IMG/VR virus record: IMGVR_UViG_3300021197_000355
Location: 1-48,630 of that record
Length of the DNA: 48,630 nucleotides
From: a virus
Reading direction: 5' to 3' (one strand)
Under the pieces are notes generated by a model, which had not been told where the DNA came from, did no database searches, and worked only from the letters and a program-made list of their open reading frames with translations. This document shows positions 20,252-45,428 of the stretch, piece by piece. Position numbers and translations under genes: made by a program. Every line of letters begins with the position of its first letter. Position 1 is the stretch's first letter.

Positions 20252-20414
20252 TTGTCCACTTACTCCTTGCTTCTTCAAGAGCTAGATTAAACTCTGCGTT
20301 GTCTGCTAGAAAATCCAAGAGGTCTGCTAACTCCTCGGCATAGTCATCGTGTAAGCCACCCTCTCTAAAGATACTAGCCCACGTCCTGAATGTCTCAGGT
20401 GGTATCATTCTCAT
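20235..20414 (-). CDS. Small acidic protein, 59 aa
   Basis: Starts MRMIPPETFRTWASIFREGG and is followed by an acidic helix (DDYAEELADLLDFLADNAEF). ATGA overlap with the integrase stop and overlap with the next small gene support it as a real gene. No family recognised. Confidence 0.55.
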   Translation of the reverse strand: MRMIPPETFRTWASIFREGGLHDDYAEELADLLDFLADNAEFNLALEEARSKWTNERLH

Positions 20415-21295
20415 TCTCTTTCTCTCCTTTCTAGTGCAGACTTAGCTGCTTTCAAACTGAACTTGTTGTATGGGTTAAGGCTACTGACATTCTTATGTCC
20501 TGTCACAGATTGAATTGCAAGGTGGTCTACCTCACTCTCAATCATCTGGACAATAGCAGTCTTACGTAAGTCACCCACTTGTAGTTCATCAGGTAGCCCT
20601 GCAACAGCCTTAACTTCCCTGAGTGCATGAGTCATCTGAATAACTGTCATCGGTCTGTAGACTGTACCCTGTGGTCTGTGGTGGGGTACTACAAATGGTT
20701 GGAAACTCCAGTCCTGTTCCTGCTGTACTAACATTTCATATAGGTTGTCAGGGATAGGTAGTTCCACTGTAGCACCACGCTTGGTTTGAGTTATTGTTAC
20801 CTGCTTGTTCTCAAGGTCAACATCTTCCCATAACAAATTACGTATGTCAATAGGACGTTGACCCCACTCGTAACACATCAACACAATCAGCCCAATGTTT
20901 CTCCACTCAAACTTTGTGAAGGCTACGTCCAAGAACGATACGACTTGACTGTGTGTCCAAACGACAGACCGAGGGATGCTAACACGTTTCTTTACTCGTG
21001 CCATTGGGTTGTACGGTATGTAGTCCAACGACACTAGGTAGTTCATGAGTACGGAAAAGATACGAGCGCAGTGGTTGGCGTTAGAGGTTGAAGTTTCTAG
21101 CTCCCAGATATCATACATCTCAGTACACATAACGACATTGATATTCTTAATGCTGATGTTACCAAGTATCCTACCCATGACAGGCATTGAGCAGAACGAA
21201 TGCATCTTATTTTCGTAGCCCTTTTGGGAAGAAGCTGCGAGTGATGCAAACTGTCTGCTGTTTAAGTATCTTTCTGTTGCTGTTCTAAGTCTCAT
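20411..21295 (-). CDS. int: Tyrosine recombinase / integrase
   Basis: The 294-residue protein has an N-terminal SAM-like DNA-binding region (1-105) and a catalytic domain with Arg147 (GQRPIDI), Lys172 (TKRGA beta-hairpin), Arg244 (GDLRKTA), His267 (TGHKNV) and Tyr276 (NPYNKF). The His of the usual HxLR motif is Gly241 here. The enzyme would insert the phage into, or excise it from, the host chromosome. It follows a promoter with palindromic operators at 21315-21398 and is followed by two tiny genes. No attachment site could be identified from this sequence alone. Confidence 0.88.
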   Translation of the reverse strand: MRLRTATERYLNSRQFASLAASSQKGYENKMHSFCSMPVMGRILGNISIKNINVVMCTEMYDIWELETSTSNANHCARIFSVLMNYLVSLDYIPYNPMARVKKRVSIPRSVVWTHSQVVSFLDVAFTKFEWRNIGLIVLMCYEWGQRPIDIRNLLWEDVDLENKQVTITQTKRGATVELPIPDNLYEMLVQQEQDWSFQPFVVPHHRPQGTVYRPMTVIQMTHALREVKAVAGLPDELQVGDLRKTAIVQMIESEVDHLAIQSVTGHKNVSSLNPYNKFSLKAAKSALERRERE

Positions 21296-28593: not shown

Positions 28594-28622
28594 TTGACTT
28601 TATGATTACTATGGAGTATAAC
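28594..28622 (+). promoter_or_regulatory. Rightward promoter 2, adjacent to a start codon
   Basis: TTGACT (28594-28599), a 17-base spacer and TATAAC (28617-28622) followed by TAGC and the ATG at 28627. The start point would fall at or next to the ATG, giving a leaderless message. A short hairpin (CCCTT/AAGGG, 28580-28593) precedes the -35. Confidence 0.5.
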
Positions 28623-28626
28623 TAGC

Positions 28627-28890
28627 ATGTCTAAACCAAAAATGTATTCTTCAGACAGAGTTCTGGAAGAATTTTACAGTGCACTAGCAAGTGAAGACGA
28701 AGGAAGACTTCGTAGAGTGCACATACCAAGATCAGATGTATTTTACGTAAGAGAAAAAATATATCAGGACACAGGCATCAAGTATACTTTAGATCGTGTA
28801 GAGAGAGCTATGTATCTGGAAGGAATGCTTGAGGCCCGTGATGTATTTGAACCTCATAGAAAGAGAAATTATGGCTCACACGATAATTGA
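28627..28890 (+). CDS. Hypothetical protein, 87 aa, first gene of the rightward arm
   Basis: Begins MSKPKMYSSDRVLEEFYSALASEDEGRLRRVHIPRSDVFYVREKI. The segment HIPRSDVFYVREKIYQDTGIKYTLDRVERAMYLEGML looks helical and may be a small winged or HTH-like fold, but this is weak. GGAG lies upstream for messages from promoter 1, while promoter 2 would make it leaderless. It overlaps the next gene. Confidence 0.6.
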   Translation: MSKPKMYSSDRVLEEFYSALASEDEGRLRRVHIPRSDVFYVREKIYQDTGIKYTLDRVERAMYLEGMLEARDVFEPHRKRNYGSHDN

Positions 28891-31517: not shown

Positions 31518-31530
31518 TTGCATAACGGGG

Positions 31531-31559
31531 TTGCAATATTATCTGTAGTATGTTATAAC
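31531..31559 (+). promoter_or_regulatory. Promoter for the DUF1127 gene
   Basis: TTGCAA (31531-31536), a 17-base spacer and TATAAC (31554-31559) followed by TA. Predicted start about 31566, giving a leader of about 53 bases that contains the SD-sequestering hairpin. A small stem (ATTGCA/TGCAAT) overlaps the -35. Confidence 0.6.
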
Positions 31560-31572
31560 TAAATATGTAAAA

Positions 31573-31615
31573 CTATCTCCATAAAGGCAGGAATGCCTAA
31601 ACATAAAGGAGATAG
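31573..31615 (+). promoter_or_regulatory. RNA hairpin enclosing the ribosome binding site of the DUF1127 gene
   Basis: CTATCTCC (31573-31580) pairs perfectly with GGAGATAG (31608-31615), which contains the Shine-Dalgarno GGAG 7 bases before the ATG at 31619. Inside, AGGCA (31585-31589) and TGCCT (31594-31598) close a GGAA loop, a GNRA tetraloop. Translation would need the stem to open, as in RNA thermometers or protein-controlled leaders. Confidence 0.6.
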
Positions 31616-31618
31616 AAA

Positions 31619-31759
31619 ATGTTTAAACGATTTGTAAAAGCAATCCAAAAAAGCCAAGAACGTAAAGTAGCCCTCTGGCAACTGCAGAATATGTCAGATA
31701 GACAACTACGTGATATAGGAGTATCTCGTGCCGAAATCGAAAACAAAGTCTACAGTTAA
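31619..31759 (+). CDS. DUF1127 microprotein, 46 aa
   Basis: The protein begins MFKRFVKAIQKSQERKVALW and continues QLQNMSDRQLRDIGVSRAEIENKVYS. The pattern W-x-L-x-x-(L/M)-S-D-R-(E/Q)-L-x-D-I-G-(L/V)-S-R-x-E-I is the DUF1127 signature, abundant in alphaproteobacteria; members such as CcaF1 of Rhodobacter sphaeroides bind RNA and affect sRNA maturation. In a phage it could redirect host RNA metabolism or stress signalling, which is inference. It has its own promoter and a structured leader. It overlaps the next gene by 32 bases. Confidence 0.8.
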   Translation: MFKRFVKAIQKSQERKVALWQLQNMSDRQLRDIGVSRAEIENKVYS

Positions 31760-31913
31760 TGCGGCAGGAAATTATACTAAGTCTGCTATGCGTAAGCGTC
31801 TTGTCTCATCCATTAAAGCTGGCGGCAAAGGTGGAAAACCTGGACAGTGGTCGGCTCGTAAAGCACAAATGGTCGCAAAGCAGTATAAAGCAAAAGGTGG
31901 AGGGTATAAATAA
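31728..31913 (+). CDS. Small basic protein with PGQWSARKAQ motif, 61 aa
   Basis: GTG start at 31728 inside the DUF1127 gene gives MPKSKTKSTVNAAGNYTK, then MRKRLVSSIKAGGKGGKPGQWSARKAQMVAKQYKAKGGGYK. The GGKPGQWSARKAQ...YKxxGGGY block is well conserved in marine phages and large DNA viruses (I believe annotated DUF5872). No function is proven; the charge suggests nucleic-acid contact. The GTG start is supported because the conserved VNAAGNYTK segment lies before the first ATG. Confidence 0.7.
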   Translation: MPKSKTKSTVNAAGNYTKSAMRKRLVSSIKAGGKGGKPGQWSARKAQMVAKQYKAKGGGYK

Positions 31914-43570: not shown

Positions 43571-43598
43571 TTGACAAACAAAATTTCAACAGTATAAC
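43571..43598 (+). promoter_or_regulatory. Strong promoter for the major capsid gene
   Basis: TTGACA (43571-43576), a 16-base spacer and TATAAC (43593-43598) followed by TA. The -35 is perfect and the -10 matches the other phage promoters. It gives the capsid gene a separate transcript with a leader of about 200 bases. Confidence 0.65.
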
Positions 43599-43606
43599 TA
43601 GGGACA

Positions 43607-45383: not shown

Positions 45384-45410
45384 TGGGGGCTGCTTTCGGG
45401 TGGCCCCTTA
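45384..45410 (+). terminator. Terminator-like hairpin after the capsid genes
   Basis: GGGGCT and GGCCCC pair around CTTTC, close in form to the terminator at 9670-9695. Only two T follow, so termination may be partial, lowering expression of the tail genes after it. Confidence 0.5.
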
Positions 45411-45428
45411 TAACTATGAGGGTTTAAA

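Follow-up and report, generated by a model that had tools for sequence, protein, structure and literature searches.

A Shine-Dalgarno hairpin and an embedded promoter may together lock the DUF1127 gene of HMO-2011-type marine phages

In HMO-2011-type podoviruses, a very abundant marine group that is unrelated to phage T4, a small DUF1127 gene lies under an RNA hairpin that sequesters its Shine-Dalgarno (SD) sequence and shows every sign of being kept by selection. The hairpin probably acts as a lock in which the gene's own promoter is embedded: it would shut the RNA that reads through from upstream, the RNA made from the gene's own promoter would be free, and the DUF1127 protein would be made only in the latter case. 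The stretch of DNA analysed (hereafter the window), a virus record of 48.6 kb, belongs to an HMO-2011-type podovirus, with a portal protein 66-76% identical to those of the Roseobacter phages CRP-13, CRP-9 and CRP-2 and of HMO-2011, a homologous large terminase subunit (TerL), the gene order of the group, and DUF1127 directly upstream of the terminase small subunit gene (TerS). The window also encodes a tyrosine integrase at 20411-21295 on the - strand (PF00589, E = 1.6e-20), so the phage may have the capacity for lysogeny. The elements of the DUF1127 region, in order along the window, are:

31521..31535 (+): box A, CATAACGGGGTTGCA, an upstream promoter element and putative activator-binding site; sole exact copy in the genome
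31531..31559 (+): P1, a second promoter-like site seen in the sequence, TTGCAA-17-TATAAC with a preceding TGt
31566..31575 (+): box C, TGTAAAACTA, with a putative -10 hexamer TAAAAC (31568-31573) overlapping the 5' arm; predicted start at about 31580
31573..31580 (+): 5' arm of the hairpin, CTATCTCC, anti-Shine-Dalgarno, pairing with 31608-31615 in the fold and backed by swap tests
31585..31598 (+): inner helix AGGCA-GGAA-TGCCT with a GNRA loop, a trait of the window's clade and not general
31608..31615 (+): 3' arm of the hairpin, GGAGATAG, with the Shine-Dalgarno GGAG (31608-31611), backed by the fold and by core pairs in relatives
31619..31759 (+): DUF1127 gene, 46 aa, Pfam PF06568 (E = 4.5e-10), kept in relatives
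31728..31913 (+): downstream gene, PHROG 17747 (E = 5.8e-31), 61 aa, GTG start, overlapping the 3' end of the DUF1127 gene

The hairpin in the window and in related phages

Folding of positions 31560-31640 yields the structure described in the initial annotation, in which the SD is held in an 8-bp stem above a GNRA-capped helix: the minimum free energy is -17.7 kcal/mol, against -7.1 +/- 2.2 kcal/mol for shuffled sequences (z = -4.9; 0 of 200 shuffles), and the inner helix pairs 31585-31589 with 31594-31598 around a GGAA cap (31590-31593). Among the 50 genes of the window with a recognisable SD, the DUF1127 gene has the highest cost of opening the SD, 9.6 kcal/mol (mean 2.1, standard deviation 2.4). 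A search of the window against Rfam returned no match at the gathering threshold.

Lack of conservation of the 5' arm in relatives had been named as grounds for rejecting the hairpin. The letters CTATCTCC indeed vary (CTACTCC, CTATCCTA, GTCTCC, TATTCTTCATA and others), while their complementarity to the SD is kept; because complementarity is what stays conserved, conservation of these letters would be the wrong test of the hairpin. Alignment of the leaders with MAFFT misaligned two stem registers, and covariation was therefore assessed by swapping arms between leaders and by counting pairs on the folds. In 51 leaders less than 80% alike, arms pair with their own partners at -14.9 kcal/mol, compared with -10.3 kcal/mol for permuted partners (z = -12.1; 0 of 20,000 permutations), and 24 leaders less than 70% alike give z = -8.1. 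Core pairs with the SD arm are kept in 41-44 of 45 divergent leaders, and pairs of the U-A, A-U, C-G and G-C types are all seen at the positions beside the SD. The check for covariation in related phages thus comes out in favour of the hairpin, and the compensatory changes across the 51 divergent leaders support its maintenance by selection.

In RNA initiated upstream, 93% of 169 leaders require 4 kcal/mol or more to open the SD, and a few (L086, L070, L045 and L056) have weak helices. The lock is looser in the leaders of DUF1127 genes from hosts, where opening costs 4.4 kcal/mol on average, versus 8.1-9.1 kcal/mol in phages. Neither the inner GNRA helix nor the loop is conserved among the phage leaders: the loops are A-rich, differ in sequence and range in length from 6 to over 30 nt.

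Promoter elements and the proposed lock

The gene appears to have a promoter of its own, as the initial annotation held. P1 (TTGCAA-17-TGtTATAAC, 31531-31559) is present, but the more conserved candidate is the -10 on the 5' arm (31568-31573). P1 lies 14 nt upstream of box C and is a better sigma70-like site than the weaker TAAAAC, before which there is no -35; a generic sigma70 scan of the window, whose -10 rule requires a final T, missed both. Exact copies of box A returned from IMG/VR, all in HMO-2011-type contigs, are followed by a DUF1127 ORF in 115 of 118 cases. A -10-like hexamer, either TATAAY or, in TAAAACTA, TAAAAC, begins 38-41 nt beyond box A's CGGG in 169 of the 170 unique leaders (at 38 nt in 76 and at 39 nt in 86), and the distance from box A to the ATG ranges from 67 to 102 nt. 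Because the spacing from box A is rigid while the distance to the ATG varies, the hexamer appears to belong to a promoter and not merely to the hairpin, and box A and box C would form one promoter with an activator site. A P1-type -10, the RNA of which keeps the 5' arm (opening cost 8.5 kcal/mol), is present in 98 of 169 relatives. The other 71 lack it but retain both box C and the hairpin, which makes box C the better candidate for the common promoter.

In CRP-212, CRP-3 and CRP-207 (L005, L006 and L007), P1 is replaced by dyads such as CACCTAATTAGGTG just before the -10, which are possibly regulator sites, and a dyad resembling TAAGTTGTACTTA occupies the same place upstream of box C in L045, L056 and L079. 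Elsewhere in the window, TATAACTA, likely a phage promoter motif, occurs six times (including 28617-28624, 43593-43600 and 45409-45416 on the + strand and 21377 on the - strand); five of the six copies are apparently intergenic or shortly before genes, and several have TTGACA or TTGACT 15-17 nt upstream. The copy at 28617 places its -10 very near the ATG at 28627, and its RNA could be almost leaderless.

We propose that the box A/box C promoter, the SD-locking hairpin and the DUF1127 gene constitute a cassette, a deletable unit of HMO-2011-type phages, for which we infer start sites, timing and read-through as follows. RNA reading through from the co-directional upstream genes would include the 5' arm, so that the SD would be paired and translation off; RNA from the cassette's own promoter would start at or after the 5' arm and leave the SD unpaired, because the -10 overlaps, abuts or sits downstream of the arm. 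DUF1127 would then be made only upon firing of its own promoter, probably a timed or activator-dependent phage promoter. The genes upstream of the cassette are indeed co-directional, and read-through is to be expected since no convincing + strand terminator was found close upstream. With a start placed 12 nt downstream of the -10's first base, the calculated mean cost of opening the SD falls from 8.1 kcal/mol in read-through RNA to 0.8 kcal/mol; as the 5' end of the RNA is moved, the lock is lost between offsets +4 and +12. The spacing between box A and the -10 predicts an own-start RNA free of the 5' strand in 161 of 169 leaders. Three arrangements of -10 and arm occur: the two overlap in 143 leaders, the -10 is situated in the loop, behind the arm, in 14 (CRP-235 and CRP-738 among them), and the arm comes immediately after the -10 in 4. 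Seven others fall outside the lock topology, with the centre of the arm beyond the predicted start. That differing topologies all satisfy the same logic is the strongest argument for the lock.

This mechanism differs from that of the initial annotation: the translational switch suggested there would be best explained by the choice of transcription start, as in T4, and less well by some ligand or protein that works on a single RNA. An elaboration in which P1, as a host-type promoter, gives locked RNA early, a phage-activated box A/box C promoter gives unlocked RNA later and the product then targets a kinase or RNAs of the host is doubtful; if true, one short intergenic region would convert promoter choice into translation on or off. 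It is unlikely that the locked P1 RNA is instead opened conditionally, whether by a factor acting in trans (feedback by DUF1127, a host RNA-binding protein or an sRNA) or by cleavage of the A-rich loop: P1 is near the sigma70 consensus and common among the leaders, its RNA is locked, the loops are A-rich and the DUF1127 protein CcaF1 is cited as RNA-binding (in PMC12501420), but 71 leaders dispense with P1, the loop sequence, loop length and inner helix that a protein or sRNA site would need are unconserved, and the -10 is within the loop in 14 leaders.

Readings that do without a lock fare worse against the same variation. Were the inverted repeat an operator, bound as DNA by a repressor or activator, and were the hairpin in the RNA incidental, the repeat's place at the promoter and the further dyads upstream of the -10 in several relatives (CRP-3, CRP-212) would be accounted for; this is nevertheless very unlikely, given that the sequence and spacing of the repeat vary freely with SD complementarity kept, which a DNA-binding protein would not tolerate. 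SD-pairing hairpins of the ROSE and FourU elements act as RNA thermometers. A thermometer here, or a ribosome-sensing attenuator as in other alphaproteobacterial leaders, such as that of a Sinorhizobium DUF1127 gene under leader attenuation (PMC12218461), is highly improbable: the window has no Rfam match, the hairpin is followed by no U-run or terminator, the short leader has no SD-preceded uORF, and the stems are mostly perfect, without the imperfect pairs expected of thermometers. Weak pairing in a few relatives would be in keeping with a chance structure of an AT-rich leader, which is ruled out by the covariation test (swap z of -12), beside the fold z of -4.9 and the first rank among 50 genes.

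If the promoter-embedded lock is correct, natural variation alone reveals T4-type silencing of read-through messages in a separate marine group, and selection keeps the logic (an arm that is complementary to the SD and lies upstream of the start) through changes of sequence, loop and topology. The cassette would also supply a specific promoter motif for these phages, for which the HMO-2011 genome paper describes no promoters, and would single out DUF1127 as a phage gene with tightly guarded timing, making a poorly understood family testable in infection.

Distribution of the gene and its protein

The 46-residue protein is a genuine member of the DUF1127 family, as had been recognised from its signature: it matches PF06568 over residues 7-41 with 39.5 bits (curated cut-off 23.3; E = 4.5e-10) and PHROG 26566 with E = 3e-5, and it contains the core L..(M/L)(S/T)D..L.DIG(I/V).R..I, of which L22, D27, L30, D32, G34, R37 and I40 are invariant in 12 phage proteins. 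The SD of the downstream gene (GGAG, about 31717-31720) lies inside the codons of the conserved motif D-I-G-V-S-R; this placement of the next gene's SD within DUF1127 motif codons (31717-31728) suggests that DUF1127 and the downstream gene (31728..31913) are translationally coupled.

All 11 HMO-2011-type CRP roseophages found carry DUF1127 upstream of the terminase small subunit gene. The expectation that gene callers would miss so small a gene was mistaken, for it is called in 10 of these 11 genomes and unannotated only in CRP-13. Of 80 IMG/VR contigs fetched by their terminase, 39 extend 2.4 kb or more upstream, and DUF1127 precedes the terminase genes in 38 of these. The exception (L018) has a TerL 93% identical and lacks the DUF1127 cassette, while retaining the overlapping downstream gene (PHROG 17747), for which reason the cassette is dispensable and deletable. 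Neighbouring genes are in changed order in L018 (1800-5050), as if small-gene modules had been shuffled in the stretch that precedes TerS.

DUF1127 also occurs just before ribonucleotide reductase in the cobaviruses SIO1 (L013), CRP-6 (L014) and CRP-5 (L015), unannotated in SIO1, and in Sinorhizobium phages. The cassette is absent beside DUF1127 of SIO1, CRP-5, CRP-6 and Sinorhizobium phage phiM19; from such cassette-free genes in cobaviruses and Sinorhizobium phages, it would seem that phages acquired DUF1127 repeatedly. DUF1127 was not found in the stretches read of HMO-2011, pelagiphage HTVC033P, phiM6, RHph_N3_19 and ctYwJ313. Phage-encoded DUF1127 proteins are real, and some are already annotated (CRP-603 gp69, Rhizobium phage RHph_I1_18, PHROG 26566). 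A search of the literature on phage DUF1127 found nothing relevant, and the HMO-2011 genome paper mentions neither promoters, hairpins nor DUF1127; the gene is catalogued already, but unstudied.

Comparison with known systems

Characterized DUF1127 proteins differ in what they bind. Rhodobacter sphaeroides CcaF1 is RNA-binding, as cited in PMC12501420; small DUF1127 proteins of Agrobacterium bind the kinase PhoR and act through it, a class defined by PhoR binding and repression of phosphate uptake genes (PMC12501420); and RNA binding was not seen for Salmonella YjiS, which associates with inner-membrane proteins (PMC11707872). The window protein resembles CcaF1 and other alphaproteobacterial members in Pfam family, shortness and arginine content, and the Agrobacterium PhoR binders in family and size (<50 aa). 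It differs from them in being phage-encoded and from the CcaF1 group in consisting only of the 37-residue domain and short ends, and the host DUF1127 leaders are on average less locked than the phage ones; RNA binding and PhoR binding are both putative for the phage protein. The proposed role as a regulator of host RNA would extend to it the activity of one protein, Rhodobacter CcaF1; most likely, the phage protein would modulate some regulator of the host by contacting protein or RNA.

Leader-based control of a DUF1127 gene is known from Sinorhizobium duf1127_1, where attenuation occurs by premature termination dependent on a uORF (PMC12218461), whereas no uORF was found in the phage leader. 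The closest likeness is to the T4 genes e, soc, 49 and I-TevI, in which the 5' strand of an SD-sequestering hairpin contains or adjoins a late promoter (PMC3014915, PMC2988022). In both systems, the SD lies in a helix of the longer, upstream-initiated RNA and a -10-like TATAA box adjoins the arm; the RNA of the gene's own promoter lacks the 5' strand in T4 and is predicted to do so here. Unlike T4, the phages considered here are an unrelated podovirus group that infects alphaproteobacteria; their cassette adds box A at a fixed 38-41 nt, has no identified T4-type late sigma, occurs in three arm/promoter topologies, and governs a DUF1127 gene, whereas the T4 genes serve lysis, capsid or homing. 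The trick itself is known from T4; here it would recur, in about 170 different versions, among phages unrelated to T4.
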